Shown here: piece by piece, positions 4,444 through 22,169 of the stretch
Layout: every line of letters starts with the position of its first letter
Numbering within the stretch: the first letter of the stretch is position 1
IMG/VR virus record: IMGVR_UViG_3300033571_029110
Location: 1-36,011 of that record
Length of the DNA: 36,011 bases
Reading direction: 5' to 3' (one strand)
DNA from: a virus
Position numbers and translations under genes: made by a program
Notes under the pieces: generated by a model
Seen by the model: the letters and a program-made list of their open reading frames with translations, nothing else
Databases searched by the model: none
What the model was told of the DNA's origin: nothing

Positions 4444-6090
4444 TTATGTTTCTTCTGGGGCTGGTTCTTCAGTAGCTCCAGATTCTTCTTCTGGTGGTGT
4501 TGCTTCTTCGCCTTCTCCTCCCTCTTCTCCTGCCTTGGGTGCTTCTCCTTCTTTTTTTTCTGCCCTTTCTTTATAAAGCTTATTTGTCATTTTATCCTCA
4601 TAAGGAATTTCTAAAAATCTGTCTATCAAAAAGTCCTGGACAAAATATTGTATTTCTTCGTCTCCTGAAGGCTCCTTAATTTCTCCCATGGAATTAATGA
4701 AATCAATCTGCTTCAGGAGCTGTTGTATTTCTCTAGACTCACCAAATTGGTTATCACTTTCAAACTTTACTCCTATCTGGCTTCTAAACTCAGCATCATT
4801 TCTTAAAAATGGGTAATCTAAACACATCTGGATCCAGAGAGGCTTTGTAACTATTTCTTGAAAAATTGATCTTAGCCTTGTTACAAATTTAGAAAATCTT
4901 ACTTCGTCTCTTTCTGCCCCTTCAGAGGCGAGTTTATAACTGTTCCCGTTAGCGGCACCAAATCTAGCAGAGAATCTGTTATAAGGGATTTTTGAATCCA
5001 TTCTAAGTTTATTATAAAAATAAACCACAGAATCCATGATGTTTAGGTTCGGTCCCTGTGCGTTTAGTGTTTCAACTTTAACCGATTCTCCTCCTTGTTG
5101 CGGGAATAAATAGTTTTTGTAAAACTGAACGTCGGGCCTACCATTAATAGCTAGCTCCCCTGATGTTGTATCTAGTTTTATGTCTTCTTTATAAATCGAC
5201 ATAAGTTCCCCTAGAGTTTCTTTTGCTTTTTGTGGAGATTTAGTTCCGATAGGAACCGTCATCTTAATTCTGTATTGAGCATTCATAACATTCCAAATAA
5301 TTCTGGAATGTTCCATAATTTTTAAAAGGTTGTATGAGCGAATAAGTCTTTCACAATAAGAGGTTCTTGAAACAGTATTTCCTTTTGCGTAAGAGATATA
5401 AATCACCTGTGCATCTAAAAGCTTTCTCTGTCTTGTTGTTTCTCCGTAATACTGCCACCAGATTGTTTCCATTGTTCCATCTGGTCTTTTCTCCACTGCA
5501 GGGGATAAACTGATAGCATCTAATTCTTTAAACCCAACAATGTCTTTTCCGTCGTTGGAATAAATGATCTCCAAAGCTAAAAATCCATCAACAAGAAACT
5601 GCCTGAAATAATGCCATCCTGAAAGACCGTTTGTAAAGTTGTGTAAAACGTACAGTTTCCTGAAATTTTTTCTGAGAGATTCAATAACTTCATCCTTTAA
5701 ATCCATATTTACCATAGTAGGATGACAAAAAAAGTTTTTCTCATCATATACTATAGCTTCGTCACAAATAGTGTCTAGGATGTATTCGATTTCAGCATTA
5801 AGAGCAAATTTTCTTATAAAATCTCTTTTGAAAGGATAATCCTTATCAAAATATGCAATATATTTTCTGATTGATGTGTCCTGTGCAGCTATTGAGTAAA
5901 TAAAATCTTCGTCATCTTCAGAGAATCCAAATCTTTCTCTAAGATTAGCTTCTGAAATACCTACTGCCATTGAATCTTTTATAACAAGATCGTTATAATC
6001 CATTCCAAATGTTCCTAAGCCACTAAGAGTTTTAAATATCCTAGCGAAATTAGGATTAAAATTTTGTAAGTTGTCTAAAAATCCTGACAT
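4444..6090 (-). CDS. 20: Portal protein, second copy (T4 gp20-like)
   Basis: A 548-residue portal protein; T4 gp20 has 524. Portal proteins form the dodecameric ring at one head vertex through which DNA is packaged and to which the neck binds. The gp20 pattern is clear: the YIAYFDKDYPFKRDF region near the N-terminus, the segment EYILDTICDEAIVYDEKNF, the stem/crown region containing VPIGTKSPQKAKETLGELMS, and a C-terminal acidic, Pro/Glu-rich tail (about the last 50 residues). It lies five bases after a paralogous gene with the same domain order. Across 52 aligned residues around SPQKAK the two copies share about 42 identities. Whether both proteins enter the ring or one is a specialised variant is unknown. 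Confidence 0.92.
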   Translation of the reverse strand: MSGFLDNLQNFNPNFARIFKTLSGLGTFGMDYNDLVIKDSMAVGISEANLRERFGFSEDDEDFIYSIAAQDTSIRKYIAYFDKDYPFKRDFIRKFALNAEIEYILDTICDEAIVYDEKNFFCHPTMVNMDLKDEVIESLRKNFRKLYVLHNFTNGLSGWHYFRQFLVDGFLALEIIYSNDGKDIVGFKELDAISLSPAVEKRPDGTMETIWWQYYGETTRQRKLLDAQVIYISYAKGNTVSRTSYCERLIRSYNLLKIMEHSRIIWNVMNAQYRIKMTVPIGTKSPQKAKETLGELMSIYKEDIKLDTTSGELAINGRPDVQFYKNYLFPQQGGESVKVETLNAQGPNLNIMDSVVYFYNKLRMDSKIPYNRFSARFGAANGNSYKLASEGAERDEVRFSKFVTRLRSIFQEIVTKPLWIQMCLDYPFLRNDAEFRSQIGVKFESDNQFGESREIQQLLKQIDFINSMGEIKEPSGDEEIQYFVQDFLIDRFLEIPYEDKMTNKLYKERAEKKEGEAPKAGEEGGEGEEATPPEEESGATEEPAPEET

Positions 6091-6095
6091 CAGTT

Positions 6096-7688
6096 TTATA
6101 AGTTAAATTCTTCACCTTCTTTTTTTTCTCCCTCTTTTCCTTCTTTTCCTTCTTCTTCCTCTTTCTTCTTTGCTAACTTTTTCTTTAGATCGTCGTTTTG
6201 TAAAAGATCTTGTGAAGTCATCCCTGAATATCTATTAACTAAATAATCTATATTGAAGTATGGTTTTCCTTCTGAGTTTTTTAATCCATACATTTTTATT
6301 AATTGTTCCTTTCTAGAGGTCATCAATTCAATTTCTTTAGCCATTGTGAAATAGTTCTCTTTCACGTAATCTAGGCCAAATTCGGACTTTAAAAGATAGT
6401 CATTTTTTCTTTGTGGAAAATCTAGACAAAATTGAATCCAAAGGGGTTTAGTAAGGATCTCCTGGTAGATTGATCTTAATCTGTTAATGAATTTACCAAA
6501 TCTTATCTCTTCCTGGTCTAATCCTTCTGCATTAAATGTGATAGTTCCTTCTGAACCGGATTCTTCCCTACCAAATCTGGTTGCTGGAATTTTTGAATCC
6601 ATTCTAAGTTTGTTTGCAAAATATTGCAAAGCATTGGTATCTGAAAAAGCTGTTGCATCTCCTGCGTTTGCAAGAGGTTGTATATCAGGAGTTCCGTTGG
6701 GGGAGGAAGGCATAAGATAGTTCTTAAAGAATTGTATCTTTGGTCTTCCGTCTATGCTTAGTTCTCCACTATCAGTATTAAGTCTTATATCCTCTTTATA
6801 TATTGACATAAGTTCTCCTAAAGTTTGCTTAGCCTTCTGTGGAGATTTTGTTCCTATAGGAACACTCATTGTCATCCTATAAGAAGAATTCATGACATTC
6901 CAAATAATTCTAGTATGCTCCATAATTCTTAAAAGATTGAATGATCTAACCAATCTTTCAGAATAACTGATCCTTGCAGAAGTTCCTCCTCCTTTAGCAT
7001 AAGAAATATAGATAATCTGGGAGTCGTAAAGTTTTCTAGTTAAAGATGGATTATCTGGATATTGGATCCAAACATCTACGAAGGATCCGTCCATCTGCTT
7101 TTCTATCGTTGGTATCAGTGAGGCAGGATCTAGTTCTTTAAAACCTATAATTTCTTTCCCTTTCGGATCAAATATTATCTCAAATGAAATAATACCATCT
7201 ACCAAGAATTTTCTAAACATGTGCCACGCAAGAATATCCTGATTAAATCCAAAAAGATTGTAGATCTGTTTATACCTCTTTTGTACCTTTTTTACTATAT
7301 CCTCTTCAGCATCGTTGTGTTGCATAAAAGAAAAATATGCCCAAAAGTTTTTCTCGTCATAAACTATCGCTTCGTCACAAAGAGTGTCTAGAATAAATTC
7401 TATTTCGGGATTTTGTGAAAATCCCCTTAGATAGTGTCTCCTGTTTTTGTAGTCCCTGTCAAAATAAGCAATATATTGTTTAGTGACCGAGTCTGCTCTT
7501 TTTAATCCTGCTAAAAAGGCTTCGTCTTTAATTCCTCCTTTTTTAAGAAACTCGGCTTCTGTAACACCTACAGCCTGTGAGTTTTTAATAACTAAATCCC
7601 CGTAGGCCATCCCGAAAGCACCAACCTTCTTGACGCTGTCGACGATTGAATTTAAAAAAGTTTTTTTTCCGTCTGTAAAACCGGCCAT
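6096..7688 (-). CDS. 20: Portal protein, first copy (T4 gp20-like)
   Basis: A 530-residue portal protein, paralogous over its whole length with the next gene downstream. Shared landmarks are YIAYFDRDY, EFILDTLCDEAIVYDEKNF, IISFEIIFDPKGKEIIGFKE, VPIGTKSPQKAKQTLGELMS, NKLRMDSKIPATRF and a C-terminal Lys/Glu-rich tail (EEGKEGKEGEKKEGEE). The two copies differ mostly near the N-terminus, in the insert before LRMDSKIP and in the tail. The first copy has a Lys-rich tail and the second an acidic Pro/Ala-rich tail. It starts with ATG 3 bases after the preceding gene and is co-transcribed with gp4 and the gp55-like gene upstream. The portal assignment is firm; the reason for two copies is not known. 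Confidence 0.93.
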   Translation of the reverse strand: MAGFTDGKKTFLNSIVDSVKKVGAFGMAYGDLVIKNSQAVGVTEAEFLKKGGIKDEAFLAGLKRADSVTKQYIAYFDRDYKNRRHYLRGFSQNPEIEFILDTLCDEAIVYDEKNFWAYFSFMQHNDAEEDIVKKVQKRYKQIYNLFGFNQDILAWHMFRKFLVDGIISFEIIFDPKGKEIIGFKELDPASLIPTIEKQMDGSFVDVWIQYPDNPSLTRKLYDSQIIYISYAKGGGTSARISYSERLVRSFNLLRIMEHTRIIWNVMNSSYRMTMSVPIGTKSPQKAKQTLGELMSIYKEDIRLNTDSGELSIDGRPKIQFFKNYLMPSSPNGTPDIQPLANAGDATAFSDTNALQYFANKLRMDSKIPATRFGREESGSEGTITFNAEGLDQEEIRFGKFINRLRSIYQEILTKPLWIQFCLDFPQRKNDYLLKSEFGLDYVKENYFTMAKEIELMTSRKEQLIKMYGLKNSEGKPYFNIDYLVNRYSGMTSQDLLQNDDLKKKLAKKKEEEEGKEGKEGEKKEGEEFNL

Positions 7689-8769: not shown

Positions 8770-9126
8770 TTAGATGTTGTAATAGGAGTTTTCCTCCTTA
8801 ACAATCCTAGAAAACGGAATGGTTTTTATTGATTTGGGTGGATGGATTTTCTTCCATCCTTTTTTCATTCCATTATGTGCTATTTGTGAAATGAATGCAA
8901 AGGGATTATCAGATTTCTCTGGGTCGTATCTGTTCCAATATTTAACCAGATCTTCCATACCAGAAGCTATACAATCTTCTCGGTCTTCTGGATCTCTGTA
9001 AGAATGTGTCTTTGACATCCCGTTTACTATAAGAGAAAACATATCTATAGTTTCTCTTGTTAGTTCCCCGTTGTGCTTACTTTCTAGAAGTGCTCTTTTG
9101 AGTTCTTTGTTTTTTACGTAAATCAT
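8770..9126 (-). CDS. 55: Late-transcription sigma factor (T4 gp55-like)
   Basis: A 118-residue protein resembling the first two thirds of T4 gp55 (185 residues), the sigma-like factor that directs host RNA polymerase to late promoters (TATAAATA). Matching features are YVKNKELKRALLE at the N-terminus (gp55 has a similar YVNNKELLQAI), ETIDMFSLIVNGMSKTHSYR, EDCIASGMEDLVKYWNRYDP and NPFAFISQIAHNGMKKGWKK, which correspond to sigma region 2. The C-terminus is short and lacks an obvious copy of the clamp-binding tail of T4 gp55. The ATG overlaps the stop of the upstream -1-frame reading frame as ATGA, suggesting translational coupling. Late-promoter-like boxes before structural genes in this window support the role. 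Confidence 0.8.
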   Translation of the reverse strand: MIYVKNKELKRALLESKHNGELTRETIDMFSLIVNGMSKTHSYRDPEDREDCIASGMEDLVKYWNRYDPEKSDNPFAFISQIAHNGMKKGWKKIHPPKSIKTIPFSRIVKEENSYYNI

Positions 9127-9368
9127 TCGCTAGGAAAATTATTTTGGAGCTTTTTAATTTGTTGCTCGATTGTTACCCTCAATTGTTCCAAATTTTCCTT
9201 AGATTTTTCAATTACTTCTATTCCAATTTTACCGTTTTCTTCGCTGGAAGTTTCCAATTCTTTTAATTTACTCAAAACCTGAACTAGATCAGATAAAACA
9301 AAATTGAGTCTGTTACCAATTCCTTCATCAGAATCGGTAACAGACTCTACAATTTTATTACTTTTTAC
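9123..9368 (-). CDS. Coiled-coil reading frame without start, probable -1 frameshift extension
   Basis: This frame encodes 81 residues and ends with TGA overlapping the gp55-like ATG (ATGA). The product is amphipathic and helical (for example LSDLVQVLSKLKELE and EKSKENLEQLRVTIEQQ) and ends NNFPSE, so it looks like real protein. No ATG or GTG is available; the only conventional alternative is a TTG at the codon before SKLKELE, leaving about 50 residues. It is exactly in the -1 frame of the upstream 772-residue gene, whose last codons form the slippery heptamer A AAA AAG followed by TAA. A -1 shift there gives a product of 853 residues. Independent initiation is the main alternative. Confidence 0.6.
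   Translation of the reverse strand, partial: VKSNKIVESVTDSDEGIGNRLNFVLSDLVQVLSKLKELETSSEENGKIGIEVIEKSKENLEQLRVTIEQQIKKLQNNFPSE
9300..9356 (-). promoter_or_regulatory. Stem-loop downstream of slippery heptamer (frameshift stimulator or terminator)
   Basis: On the minus strand GAGTCTGTTACC (9347-9336) pairs perfectly with GGTAACAGACTC (9317-9306) around an 18-base loop. An outer arm AAAATT/AATTTT (9356-9351 with 9305-9300) extends it after a 3-base bulge. The inner stem begins 20 bases, and the outer arm 11 bases, after the heptamer at 9368-9374. A T-rich stretch (AATTTTGTTTT) follows, so it could also act as a weak terminator. Confidence 0.65.
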
Positions 9369-11683
9369 TTTTTTTTTGTCTTTGGTGCTGAAGAGAGTCC
9401 TGCTCTTTTCAAATCCTCAACAAATTTTTTACCGTTTTTCTTATGATTCCCTGGTGCTTCCTCTAGATTAGCATGAGCTTCATCTTCGATAAATTTTTTT
9501 GGATTAATGGATTTAGCTTTAGGAGCTTTTTCTGTGTGCGAATTAGCTTGTCCCTCTGCTAGATTCATATTCTTAAGATCTTCAATAAATTTAGCACTTC
9601 CTTTTACATTTGCTTGTGGTGCATCTGCTAGGTTTAGGTTTTCCAGATCTTCAATAAATTTTTTGCTCGATCCTGATTTTTTAGAGGGTGCGCTTGCTAA
9701 ATGACTATCAGAAGATTTACCTCCTTTTAAGGATTTTCCACTTTCTGGAGCTTCAACCAAACCAGCGTTTTTTTCATTTTCAACAAATTTTCCTGCAGAA
9801 CTTGCTGATTTACCTGGCGCTTTAGATAGATGTTTTTTGACAGAATTCATAAAAGCAGCATCATATTTAGCAGAAGGTGATTCTTTATCGGGAGCATGTG
9901 CTAAACCTGCATCAGTAGATTCATTGAAACCTGGATCAGATTCCATCTCAAGATCTAATGTTGGAGCGGTAATATCAATGTTTCCTACCTCGTCTTCGAT
10001 GTTTTCAACATCAGAGAAGAAATATTCTCCAGTTTTACCTTCACCAAACATAATAGTGTATGTTTTAGAATTTCCATCTACTCCAATAACTTTACCTTTT
10101 TGTCCGTTTCTTTTAATCCTAACAGGGGTGTCAATAGAATATCCCATTTCTTCGTTTACGTCTCCAGAAACAGATTTTGCATTTTTTTCTAAGTTGTTAA
10201 TCTCTTGATTAACTATGTTCCATCTATTCTTAAGGTCTGAAATTTCTTTTTCGATACCTTCTTCGATCTGAATTAATTCTTGAGAATCTGAAATTCTTGG
10301 ATTTTGAGACTTAGCAAATTTAATTTTGTTACTTTCGTTTTCTAGAATTTGTATGTTCTTGGCAATTTCTTTCTTATCATTTTTCATGATGCTAAGAATT
10401 GCCTGCTCTCCTTCTAAGAATTCTGTTAGAGATTCTGAGATGTCATATTTGATAAAATCCTTGATGATGCTCACTGCCTGTGTTGCATTGGCTTCGTAAA
10501 CCTTGTTGAGTTTCATCATAGGGTTTACTGTGTGAACGTATATTTTCTTTCCTAATTTAAAAATATTTGCTTCTACACCTTCATAGATTTTAGATTTAAT
10601 TTTCTTTCCGAAATCAATATCTGCTATTTCTTCTGAAGTGCTAGACACAAACAAAGCTTTAGAAATTTTCAATGATGAGTTTTCTAATAAGGTGTTTGTT
10701 GTTACACTAAGAAGTACAGGAAGTTCATTCTCGTTGATTTTTTTTCCGTTGAAATAAACTCTCTTTAGGTCATTTTCGTAAACAAATTCAACTTTATTGT
10801 TTCCAACATTCAAAGAAACTTTGTTGTTTGATATCTTAACGTCTCTGTCTTCTAGAATACCAGCTTTATTTACAAAATCTGGAGAGAGATCAGAAGGATT
10901 CACTTCTGTTAATGAAGTTTTGTCTTCATTTACAGAAAAGAATTTTCCGTTAGCATAAAATACTGATCCATTTTCTAGTACTTGGACTGGAGAATAAACG
11001 GAGGTAACCTCGCAAACTTCGTTATCGTAACCAACGTGGAATTTTGTTCCGTTTTGGTTTTCGTAAAGAGAGAGGAAGCTAACTAAATTTCTTACTTGTG
11101 GGTTAAATCCAAATCTTTTTAATCCGTGGATAAGAGTTTCTGTAGATCTGTTTTCTGAAATTAGCCACGATTTCATTTGTGAAGTTGCATCAGAAAAAAG
11201 ATCTCTTCCTGAAGTGCTTCTAATTGATTCGTAAGCTTTAACCACTTCAATTTCCCTTCTTCTGTTTTCTAAAATCGTATTCATGTTTTCTAAAACGGAA
11301 GCTACTGAAGATTCCCAAACAAAACCTTTAAGTTCATTAATAAATCCTTCTATTACGAAAGCTTCAGAAATGTTTTTAGAAACAAGTAAAAATTCATATT
11401 TTTCTAAAAGAATTTTTCCTGCTGGTAGTTCAGCAAAAGAAGAATTTTTAAGAGCAGAAATTGTATTTAAAACACCAAAAGAAAAAGAAGTTTTCCCTTT
11501 TTGTGTATATTCTTGCTCCGTTTTAGATTCGTTTATTCCCTGTGCTGTAGCTCCGTTAAGATAAGACGATCCTACCGTTGGATTAGAAGAATCTACTCCA
11601 CCCCAATTATTCAGGGATTCTGCAATTCTTTTTGAAGCTTCCATTTGGATTTTATTGATGTCATTATTCATGTTTTGTTCCAT
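9365..11683 (-). CDS. Large putative virion/scaffold protein with C-terminal repeats
   Basis: A 772-residue protein with no family I can name. Residues 1-420 are mixed helical and beta and include a segment with many short strands (about 200-330). Residues about 425-520 are charged coiled coil. A compact beta segment near 535-585 (VRIKRNGQKGKVIGVDGNSK) resembles a KOW or SH3-like fold. From residue 591 to the end runs a Lys/Ala/Pro-rich tail with about seven degenerate repeats of the type KKFIEDLxNLNLAxAP. Some repeats contain L-x-E followed by A or G (LVE-A, LAE-G, LEE-A), the consensus cut by the T4 prohead protease. The gene ends ACA AAA AAA AAG TAA, a slippery site. An internal head or core role is an inference. 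Confidence 0.8.
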   Translation of the reverse strand: MEQNMNNDINKIQMEASKRIAESLNNWGGVDSSNPTVGSSYLNGATAQGINESKTEQEYTQKGKTSFSFGVLNTISALKNSSFAELPAGKILLEKYEFLLVSKNISEAFVIEGFINELKGFVWESSVASVLENMNTILENRRREIEVVKAYESIRSTSGRDLFSDATSQMKSWLISENRSTETLIHGLKRFGFNPQVRNLVSFLSLYENQNGTKFHVGYDNEVCEVTSVYSPVQVLENGSVFYANGKFFSVNEDKTSLTEVNPSDLSPDFVNKAGILEDRDVKISNNKVSLNVGNNKVEFVYENDLKRVYFNGKKINENELPVLLSVTTNTLLENSSLKISKALFVSSTSEEIADIDFGKKIKSKIYEGVEANIFKLGKKIYVHTVNPMMKLNKVYEANATQAVSIIKDFIKYDISESLTEFLEGEQAILSIMKNDKKEIAKNIQILENESNKIKFAKSQNPRISDSQELIQIEEGIEKEISDLKNRWNIVNQEINNLEKNAKSVSGDVNEEMGYSIDTPVRIKRNGQKGKVIGVDGNSKTYTIMFGEGKTGEYFFSDVENIEDEVGNIDITAPTLDLEMESDPGFNESTDAGLAHAPDKESPSAKYDAAFMNSVKKHLSKAPGKSASSAGKFVENEKNAGLVEAPESGKSLKGGKSSDSHLASAPSKKSGSSKKFIEDLENLNLADAPQANVKGSAKFIEDLKNMNLAEGQANSHTEKAPKAKSINPKKFIEDEAHANLEEAPGNHKKNGKKFVEDLKRAGLSSAPKTKKK
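9368..9913 (-). repeat. Degenerate protein repeats (KFIEDL..NLAxAP)
   Basis: Residues 591-772 of the 772-residue protein contain units ending AGLAHAP, KHLSKAP, AGLVEAP, SHLASAP, LNLADAP, MNLAEGQ, ANLEEAP and AGLSSAP. Five are preceded by K(K)F(V/I)E(D/N). Units are roughly 18-30 residues apart. The codons are similar but not identical, so the repeats are old or under selection. Confidence 0.85.
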
Positions 11684-19411: not shown

Positions 19412-19717
19412 TTACTTTTTGGGGTTAGTAAACGAGAAAGCTTCTTCCATATCACCTTGTGAGATTTTCTTGTTTTGAGCTTCGATTTTTTCGTTTAATT
19501 TATCTATAAATAATTGATACTCATAGAAAGGTAATTTTTCTAGAGTTTCTATAGACAGTTTATGTTCTTCCCAGAGCCTGAACTTAATATCAAAGTAGTT
19601 GGTCAATGATATTTGAAATAACGAAAAGGGATCTGTACCCTCCGGGAAAGGTAATAGAAGCTGTGACCTCCCCGCCACAGCTCTCACATTTTGAGTAAAT
19701 TCTTGATTTTGTTGCAA
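19412..19717 (-). CDS. +1-frame partner of the baseplate-hub gene, probable frameshift extension
   Basis: The reading frame (101 codons from a TTG at 19717) overlaps the 3' end of the gp26/51-like gene by 128 bases in the +1 frame and has no ATG or good ribosome-binding site. Beyond the overlap it encodes a convincing helical segment (WEEHKLSIETLEKLPFYEYQ and on through LFIDKLNEKIEAQNKK). This layout is like tail-assembly chaperone pairs that are joined by programmed frameshifting. A +1 shift would add 59 residues if it happens at the stop codon. Reinitiation at TTG or GTG, or a one-base sequencing error, are the alternatives. Confidence 0.65.
   Translation of the reverse strand: MQQNQEFTQNVRAVAGRSQLLLPFPEGTDPFSLFQISLTNYFDIKFRLWEEHKLSIETLEKLPFYEYQLFIDKLNEKIEAQNKKISQGDMEEAFSFTNPKK
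19590..19595 (-). other. CTT TGA, candidate +1 frameshift site
   Basis: The last sense codon and stop are CTT TGA. This matches the release-factor-2 recoding site, where the leucine tRNA slips from CUU to UUU. A +1 shift continues into the 19412 frame as GAT ATT. No Shine-Dalgarno-like stimulator is seen before it. A second possible site is CCC G at 19643-19646. Confidence 0.5.
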
Positions 19718-20645
19718 ACATAATCTGTTTGCTCATTTGATCTGCTATAGAAAACTGAAGAGGAGTCCATTCGGCGGAAGTTCTCTCGTAGGCATCATAC
19801 ACTTTTTCATCTAGGTCCCTCCAATCGGAAATGATAAAGGTGGAAACTTCAGCAAAACTCTTGTCGAATTTTTTACCTCTTCTTGTTTTTTCTAGTAATA
19901 TTTTTCTGACCTTGGTGGTGACACCAACAGTAGGAATGAATAATCCCATCTCTGGACTTCCGTCTTTTGGTACGAAATTAAAGCAATACCTTTCTTTGTC
20001 GTATCTTTTAGTTATTTCCTGTCCTAAAACAAAGCTCTCTAAAATATTGGCTTTTAATTCTACCTGGTCTGGTAAATTGCAATTTTCTCCTTTACAGTTT
20101 TTAGAAAGCGGAAGTAGTATCCGATTTTCTCCCCTTAAAAAAGTGTAGTCACGTATTGACATGATAACGAAAAATCTATCTTCGTACCATAAATCATAAT
20201 GGTCTAGCATTCCTCCGTTCCACCGTACCCTCATACATTTTTCTAAAATGTGATTGAGTTTTTCATCCAGATCTATTCTATCTGCTTCATCAACGGTAGA
20301 ATAATGTCTAATCTCGGAAACGAGTGCTGGTCTTATCGCCATCTCGAATCCTTCTGGATAACCAAACCCCTTGGAAGGGAGAGTTTCTATTGGGATATTT
20401 TTCCACTCGGATTCCATACCCATTGGAACTCTTTTAACCTTTCCTAAGTTATTTAGTGGGATTTCTGGTTCTTTAATCGGAGGGGGATCTGTAACTTTTT
20501 GTTCCCTTCTTTTCTGTGCATTGGAATTTTCTTCTCCTATCCAATTAGGGATATTTACGTCTTCTACGTCTGGATCGTAACCGATTGTTGATTGAGCTTC
20601 TTTTTTTCTAAGCTCGTCTAGCATTTTTTTTTCTTCAGGACTCAT
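19590..20645 (-). CDS. Baseplate hub protein / assembly factor (T4 gp26/gp51 family)
   Basis: A 351-residue protein. The N-terminal 75 residues are polar and Pro-rich. Residues about 80-230 fit the T4-type baseplate family that includes gp26 and gp51: PIETLPSKGFGYPEGFEMAI, then DEKLNHILEKCMRVRWNGG, then LWYEDRFFVIMSIRDYTFL. A single Cys pair near the C-terminus (SKCESCGGEV) may be half of a zinc site, with a second Cys pair at NCKGENCNL. The gene ends CTT TGA, the same six bases as the +1 frameshift site of bacterial release-factor-2 genes, and a +1 frame continues downstream. It is longer than T4 gp26 (208) or gp51 (249). Which of the two it replaces is uncertain. Confidence 0.72.
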   Translation of the reverse strand: MSPEEKKMLDELRKKEAQSTIGYDPDVEDVNIPNWIGEENSNAQKRREQKVTDPPPIKEPEIPLNNLGKVKRVPMGMESEWKNIPIETLPSKGFGYPEGFEMAIRPALVSEIRHYSTVDEADRIDLDEKLNHILEKCMRVRWNGGMLDHYDLWYEDRFFVIMSIRDYTFLRGENRILLPLSKNCKGENCNLPDQVELKANILESFVLGQEITKRYDKERYCFNFVPKDGSPEMGLFIPTVGVTTKVRKILLEKTRRGKKFDKSFAEVSTFIISDWRDLDEKVYDAYERTSAEWTPLQFSIADQMSKQIMFATKSRIYSKCESCGGEVTASITFPGGYRSLFVISNIIDQLL

Positions 20646-21007: not shown

Positions 21008-21586
21008 TTAGTTAAAAATGTCTTCGAAATAATCTGCTCTGAAGGAAAGAGACACTTTAAATGGTGTTGTTCCGTTGGTGTAATCCAAATCCATAGATTT
21101 AATCTGATCAACAGGGAAGCAGTTAACTAGCTTAATTCTTCTGAAGACATCTCCTTGTTTATTAAAAATAGAAACCAAAATATAAGTGCCACCCGCATAA
21201 ACTGATTTAATACCTGTGGCACCCGTTAGAGGATTGTAAACAAGATCTGACCACTGTCTAAGAGTTTTAAACACGTAGTTACTATTGTTGTCGTCTAGGT
21301 TGGTTTCAAATTCAACCCTAATTTTAACACCAGTATCGTCAACCACGCCTCCTGCGTATCTTCTACGAGCGAACTTATATCTTTGCTCCATGATCCCTGG
21401 GTTCTTATCTACCGCTAGTCCTGTTACTGAAAGAACGTTTTCTACGAGAAGAGTTCTTCCTGCGTTTCCTTGCGGATTTGAAACCGCTACAGGCGGTTGA
21501 ATAAGTACCTCGAATTGGTTTAAATATACTGGTTCGTATAATTGAACTGCTGCTTTTGCTGAACTGAAATGTGGTAATCCTGCCAT
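21008..21586 (-). CDS. 19: Tail tube protein, second copy (T4 gp19-like)
   Basis: A 192-residue tail-tube protein; T4 gp19 has 163. Hexamers of gp19 stack to form the inner tube through which DNA passes. The whole protein aligns with the gene just upstream: MAGLPHFSSAKA, then YEPVYLNQFEVLIQPP, then LDDNNSNYVFKTLRQWSDL, YNPLTGATG, and a C-terminal ISMDLDYTN-like end with FRADYFEDIF. It is followed by a terminator and preceded by an AT-rich leader. Compared with T4 gp19 it has about 30 extra residues, probably loops. Whether it fills the main tube or a special ring is unknown. Confidence 0.88.
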   Translation of the reverse strand: MAGLPHFSSAKAAVQLYEPVYLNQFEVLIQPPVAVSNPQGNAGRTLLVENVLSVTGLAVDKNPGIMEQRYKFARRRYAGGVVDDTGVKIRVEFETNLDDNNSNYVFKTLRQWSDLVYNPLTGATGIKSVYAGGTYILVSIFNKQGDVFRRIKLVNCFPVDQIKSMDLDYTNGTTPFKVSLSFRADYFEDIFN

Positions 21587-21596
21587 TTTTTATAAA

Positions 21597-22169
21597 TTAT
21601 ATGAATACATCGTCAAAGTAATCTACTGCCCATTGTAAGGTCAATTTGTAGATCCCAGTTTGAGTGTAGTTCAAACCCATCTCCGTAATAGGGGTCATAG
21701 GGAAACAATCTCTGAGATTTATTCTTCTGTAAACATCTCCTTGTTTATTGAAAACGTTTATCAGAATATTTCCCGTGTAGTTTGTTTTTAATCCCATAGC
21801 TCCTGTTAACGGATTGTAAATTAAATCTGACCACTGTCTGAGAACTTTGAAAACGTACATGGAGTTATTGTCATCAAGGTTCACCTCGAATTCGATGTCA
21901 ACATCCAGACCAGTTCTAGCCGGAGCTGCACCAGAGTAGTACCTCTTAGCAAATTTGAATTGCTGTGTGGTCTCCCCTGGGTTCTGATCCACCTGTAATC
22001 CAGAAACTCTTGTGACCTGTTCCAGGAGAATGTTTCCATTTCCTGGGTTCCCCTGTGGCGGTACCACCGCGGTAGGTGGAGTTATAGTCACTTCAAACTG
22101 GTTCAGATAAACTGGCTCGAATTTGTTTATCGAAGCTTTTGAACTAGTATAATGTGGTAATCCTGCCAT
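21597..22169 (-). CDS. 19: Tail tube protein, first copy (T4 gp19-like)
   Basis: A 190-residue tail-tube protein, clearly paralogous with the next gene: MAGLPHYTSSKA, FEPVYLNQFEVTITPP, LDDNNSMYVFKVLRQWSDLI, YNPLTGAMG and VDYFDDVF. The copies differ mainly near residues 35-70 (PPQGNPGNGNILLEQVTRVS) and at about 90-95. It lies 45 bases after the sheath stop with a TATATAAAATA box in the gap, and ten bases before the second copy. The order sheath then tube is the same as T4 18-19. Confidence 0.9.
   Translation of the reverse strand: MAGLPHYTSSKASINKFEPVYLNQFEVTITPPTAVVPPQGNPGNGNILLEQVTRVSGLQVDQNPGETTQQFKFAKRYYSGAAPARTGLDVDIEFEVNLDDNNSMYVFKVLRQWSDLIYNPLTGAMGLKTNYTGNILINVFNKQGDVYRRINLRDCFPMTPITEMGLNYTQTGIYKLTLQWAVDYFDDVFI

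Follow-up and report, generated by a model that had tools for sequence, protein, structure and literature searches.

Ribosomal frameshifting in tail-assembly genes is the main kind of programmed slippage known from DNA phages, and the Lambda gpG/gpGT gene, with its minority -1 extended product, is one such case. The -1 frameshift of E. coli dnaX takes place at A AAA AAG, with a stem downstream of this heptamer, and its stimulators lie close to the slip site. Runs of nine A's or nine T's slip efficiently with bacterial RNA polymerase (PMC5009743), and the nine-A run of Thermus thermophilus dnaX gives rise to two products (PMC1088944). Transcriptional slippage in Shigella spa13 (and mxiE) leads to a C-terminally extended product; the coding end of the spa13 extension runs into the start of spa32, the gene that follows, and affects spa32 expression (PMC5009743). 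The tssM1 gene of Citrobacter rodentium has an A run before its stop codon and yields two protein lengths, the extended form arising via an extra A, and no RNA stimulator was found (PMC4256274). Transcriptional slippage has been suggested to rescue one methyltransferase gene of Campylobacter phage CPt10 that has a frameshift in a poly-A tract (PMC2853527). Our search of the open-licence literature returned no description of a phage gene with conserved A9 slippage.

The window analyzed here, a stretch of viral DNA of 36,011 nucleotides, contains a 772-codon gene that ends in an A9 run abutting its stop codon, followed by an open -1 frame that reaches the start of a gp55-like gene. The proposed layout is that of spa13: slippage, a C-terminal extension and an overlap with the next gene. 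However, spa13 is a secretion-system gene without homology to the phage gene, and no terminator is mentioned in its extension. The tssM1 run is an A11 located 28 nt before the stop, whereas the phage A9 directly precedes the stop and is kept across many phages. Slippage results in a shorter product for both the Thermus and the E. coli dnaX genes, but would result in a longer one for the phage gene. The phage junction shares the A AAA AAG sequence and a downstream stem with E. coli dnaX, although the phage hairpin is 20 nt away and terminator-like. Finally, Lambda gpG/gpGT is likewise a phage gene, but differs in slippery sequence, gene and neighbourhood, as a tape measure gene follows there and gp55 here.

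The junction and its conservation in relatives

The features of the junction are given in Table 1. The codons at the 3' end of the gene are ACA AAA AAA AAG TAA (in the letters of the window, ...gac AAAAAAAAA g TAA), and the A AAA AAG heptamer that the original prediction had placed at 9374-9368 is indeed present on the minus strand. The sequence and the open reading frame also bear out its claim of an 81-codon -1 frame that lacks ATG and GTG codons and runs into the ATGA start of the gp55-like gene, within which the frame terminates at a TGA (9125-9123). TTG codons are present only well inside this frame.

Table 1. Positions of the junction features within the window.
Feature	Position	Strand	Remarks
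gp55-like late sigma factor gene	8770..9126	-	PHROG 234, E 5.9e-15; Sigma70_r2; start overlaps the stop of the extension (ATGA)
-1 frame extension, 81 codons plus stop	9123..9368	-	entry at GTA 9368
Covarying hairpin followed by a U-rich tract	9306..9347	-	best read as an intrinsic terminator within the extension
0-frame stop codon TAA, abutting the A9 run	9365..9367	-	
772-aa 0-frame gene	9365..11683	-	family without known function
A9 slippage run	9369..9377	-	phase NNA AAA AAA AAN

Relatives were gathered with four queries (the 772-aa protein, gp55, an alignment of the 772-aa protein and an alignment of the extension), which together resulted in about 250 loci. All relatives with the slip site are viral contigs from metagenomes; annotated isolates with the site were sought but none was found, no relative was found in bacterial genomes, and at the nucleotide level annotated phages matched only weakly and over short stretches. 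Using a pattern that required the run and a -1 frame open for at least 45 codons, we identified 64 distinct junctions in which an A9 (57) or an A10 (7), in phase NNA AAA AAA AAN, is followed by an immediate stop and an open -1 frame. A search with the extension peptide, which is unbiased for the run, revealed at least nine A's plus a stop in 71 of 71 complete junctions; three further contigs begin inside the extension and lack the junction. Likewise, when the stop of each gene was located without requiring the run, the run was present wherever the extension was present. The stop following the run is TAA, TAG or TGA across all the run-bearing relatives, and the homopolymer of at least nine A's is kept in length among the homologues. 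The original prediction had named relatives that keep the frame with a good ATG and without a slippery run as the finding that would speak against it, and no such relative was found.

The -1 frame contains 0 stops per sequence in 38 unique relatives, as opposed to 11.4 and 9.0 in the other frames, and the pN/pS of the window-type extension is 0.43 in this frame versus 0.89 and 1.35 in the other two. Hence, the frame reached by a gain of one base in the run is the conserved coding frame. In the window's clade the extension is conserved and about 80-86 codons long, and its end overlaps the gp55 start, with a few ending just before it. In a second group (loci L082-L099 and L179-L187) the extension is 52-60 codons long, has an unrelated sequence (for example, SRNYYFAPENPEQNK.GKPFVD..KGKFAKAP) and ends before gp55; its pN/pS is 0.51 in the -1 frame versus 1.07 and 1.24 elsewhere. 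Both extension types evolve as protein, under purifying selection, in the -1 frame only.

Both the run and the extension are absent in three lineages (L068, L152/L153 and L173/L174/L182). In a tree of the 0-frame core, whose rooting is uncertain, as is the distant L101 row, these run-less lineages are found at three places, one nested in the window's clade and two adjoining run-bearing groups. Given these three separate positions, the simplest reading is that run and extension were lost together more than once.

These joint losses also bear on the possibility that the 81 codons form a small gene of their own, translated from an internal rare start codon, and that the A run is incidental. Many extensions do contain TTG codons, and Shine-Dalgarno sites are rare in this phage. 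However, no start codon is conserved in the extensions (ATG is absent in 40 of the 50 coil extensions), in every junction the -1 frame stays open back to the run, and no extension was found without an A9. An internal start was rejected on account of this missing conserved start and the constant company of the A9, and we consider it most improbable. Even less credit is given to the A9 as a contingency locus, at which replication slippage would toggle the extension between phage genomes: runs of nine A's are generally mutation-prone, but all the junctions are out of frame, and such a phase-variable DNA switch was rejected because a fused in-frame state was not found among them.

The retention of the run, the stop and the open -1 frame in the relatives strongly supports the existence of two protein lengths. 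Judging from these comparisons, a short and a C-terminally extended form are almost certainly both made, by slippage of either RNA polymerase or the ribosome, and it is very likely that some kind of programmed slippage yields the extension.

A terminator-like hairpin within the extension

The 12-bp stem that had been described 20 nt past the heptamer is present in the window (9347-9336 pairing with 9317-9306). The hairpin ranks top in a terminator-like scan and, like an intrinsic terminator, lies where a gene ends and has a U-rich tract after its stem. Its pairing is maintained: 94.4% of the cells are paired versus 30-40% in slid controls, and double-sided changes are found at 7 of the 13 pairs. 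Three relatives without the slip site (L152, L173 and L182) have a terminator hairpin with a U tract at the same place, 22-25 nt past the stop, and inspection by eye revealed one at this place in L068, which also lacks the site. In the second group, the terminator is located 94-97 nt past the stop inside the extension, or beyond the extension. Across the clades, no hairpin holds a constant position.

Because relatives without slip site and extension have a hairpin at the same place, and other clades have one elsewhere, the hairpin is most likely the transcription terminator of the gene, and the simplest reading would be that the gene's own terminator was captured inside the extension. The original prediction had itself cautioned that the long spacer and the T-rich tail might indicate a terminator, and the comparison with the slip-site-less relatives supports that caution. 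For the same reason, the hairpin was dropped as a frameshift stimulator in the leading reading. Moreover, its distance to the heptamer, 20 nt or about 11-13 nt when AU arms are counted, differs from the approximately 5-9 nt of a stimulator. The hairpin may also slow ribosomes.

Proposed slippage by RNA polymerase or by the ribosome

The codon 5' of Lys-Lys is ACA, TCA, GCA, AGA, CAA, GAA, CTA or GTA, and all eight end in A. In the coil clade, the third base of the Thr, Ser and Ala codons at this position is A in 49 of 49 cases, while A-ending codons account for only 0.25-0.41 of the usage for these amino acids; as a control, none of the 38 other fourfold columns in the gene tail is invariant. 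The third codon of the run is AAG, AAC, AAT or AAA. Conservation of the heptamer among related phages, which had been proposed as a check, was thus found in part: the A run is kept, but the heptamer as written is not, since its final base varies among G, C, T and A. According to these alignments, the constraint applies to the A9 as a unit and extends to a synonymous A that the A AAA AAG heptamer does not contain. This first A is dispensable for a single A AAA AAG, but is needed by a nine-A homopolymer or by two overlapping heptamers. The constrained A9, the varying last base and the terminator-like hairpin do not support a classical heptamer with a stimulatory hairpin.

We surveyed the coding sequences of these phages (about 412 kb, non-redundant) for the avoidance of A runs, with expected values derived from synonymous shuffles. 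Runs of at least nine A's elsewhere are five-fold depleted (12 versus 59.8 expected), and the observed/expected ratios for the three phases are 0.26, 0.15 and 0.21. In the same survey A8 is halved and A7 is normal, and in-phase A AAA AAG is found 58 times versus 90 expected (0.64), with no depletion in the other phases. An avoidance signature of this kind has been used for transcriptional slippage (PMC1088944). The avoidance of at least nine A's in all three phases tips the balance to RNA polymerase, although replication errors would produce the same phase-independent pattern. Two more coding A9 runs, which are rare given this avoidance, are present on the minus strand of the window, in a 351-aa ORF (19590-20645) and a 121-aa ORF (1695-2060).

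The identical protein would result if ribosomes were programmed to shift into the -1 frame on two tandem heptamers (A AAA AAA and A AAA AAN), aided by the hairpin or not. The phase NNA AAA AAA AAN followed by a stop is constant in 64 of 64 junctions, so that an in-phase X XXY YYZ heptamer is always present; this constancy fits two overlapping -1 heptamers and counts against the transcriptional level, but common descent could account for it under either mechanism. In addition, A AAA AAG is among the strongest -1 heptamers in E. coli, and its phase-specific avoidance elsewhere is a ribosomal signature. Support also comes from the proven A AAA AAC site of an IS cluster, for which no stimulator has been established (PMC4066793), and from the conserved and covarying hairpin of the coil clade. 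On the other hand, this hairpin lies far from the heptamer, has a counterpart at the same place in relatives that lack the slip site and has no constant place in the other clade. Furthermore, slippage on the last two codons would be weaker where the third codon is AAC or AAT, and the constraint on all nine A's argues against a ribosomal heptamer.

The invariant A before Lys-Lys, the varying heptamer end, the absence of a constant hairpin place and the depletion of runs of at least nine A's favour the transcriptional level. RNA-polymerase slippage is therefore considered the likelier source of the extension, and ribosomal -1 slippage a possible but less probable one. The extended product proposed originally is supported by the 64 junctions and the selection on the -1 frame; its attribution to a fraction of the ribosomes is the less probable option. 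The full reading, i.e., a programmed recoding site that gives both lengths and acts at the level of transcription, appears reasonably probable from the sequence comparisons. RNA polymerase would insert an extra A at the A9 in a fraction of the transcripts, and the resulting A10 would bring the 81-codon -1 frame into register with the 772-codon frame. Two products would then be made in a set ratio, the protein of 772 aa and a form of 853 aa (...TKKK-VKSNKIVES...) whose tail would be a helical hairpin. If the hairpin is the terminator of the gene, the extension and the overlapping gp55 start would be carried on read-through transcripts. Counting against the full reading, a terminator within the extension would cut the yield of the extension. 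The run, the frame and the terminator are conserved; slippage itself, its mainly transcriptional level and the importance of both forms are what we infer.

The protein, its neighbours and the meaning of a conserved slip site

AlphaFold predicts a folded core for the 772-aa protein at residues of about 66-565 (pLDDT mostly >70), within which an SH3/Tudor-like domain lies at about 520-560; residues 619-772 have a pLDDT <50. This disordered tail consists of repeated xLAxAP / KFIEDL motifs (9365-9900, minus strand, and homologues). Structural matches to the predicted fold were confined to uncharacterised myophage proteins, e.g., of Tenacibaculum phage PTm1, and among solved structures only a small Tudor-like domain was matched; no PHROG and only sub-threshold Pfam matches were obtained. 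For the extension, analyzed as an 83-residue piece starting from KK, a two-helix hairpin is predicted (H19-47 and H52-78), and slippage would add this helical hairpin to some copies of the protein. The xAP motif of the disordered tail recurs in the extension of the second group. Two extra xLAxAP / KFIEDL-type motifs sit in this -1 extension, so that slippage in the second clade would alter the number of motifs.

The gene is surrounded by T4-like structural and replication genes, with head closure, DNA end protector and portal genes on one flank and tail sheath, tail tube and terminase genes on the other. Its place and neighbours suggest that the 772-aa protein is a virion or assembly protein. 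The downstream gene matches the T4 gp55 family profile, and, judged by gp55 and portal, the closest named records are those of metagenomic huge phages (462-735 kb) and of the Prevotella Lak phages. Several further features of the window were observed. The portal gene is apparently duplicated: two neighbouring genes (4444-6090 and 6096-7688, minus strand) each match PHROG 213, the T4-type portal family, with E about 1e-55 to 1e-57. Two tail-tube-like paralogues (PHROG 32623/3629) also lie side by side, at 21008-21586 and 21597-22169 (minus strand), adjoined by a 1134-aa protein with its best sheath match at residues of about 719-1122. Shine-Dalgarno-like sites are missing before nearly all of the window's genes, and TATAAATA-like boxes closely precede several starts, which may point to a Bacteroidota host with late promoters right at the start codon. 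For gp55, the missing Shine-Dalgarno site was dropped as a sign of translational coupling because it is uninformative where nearly all genes lack one.

The extension overlaps gp55 and contains the probable terminator, which invites the idea that slippage tunes gp55. Ribosomes stopping at the TAA would allow the terminator hairpin to fold, whereas on slipped transcripts, or with slipped ribosomes, translation would proceed through the hairpin, prevent termination and end on the gp55 start. Slippage would in that case gate an attenuator, setting the level of the extended protein and of the late sigma factor; we think this unlikely. A function for the extension, and any control of gp55, are likewise only what we infer.

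A plain listing of open reading frames gives the short form alone and leaves the stretch before gp55 empty. In this family of large phages one slip site has been kept through deep divergence, while the extension differs completely between the two clades. The natural variants of the family can be used to separate ribosomal slippage from slippage by RNA polymerase, and the family is also suited to asking whether slippage can open a terminator.
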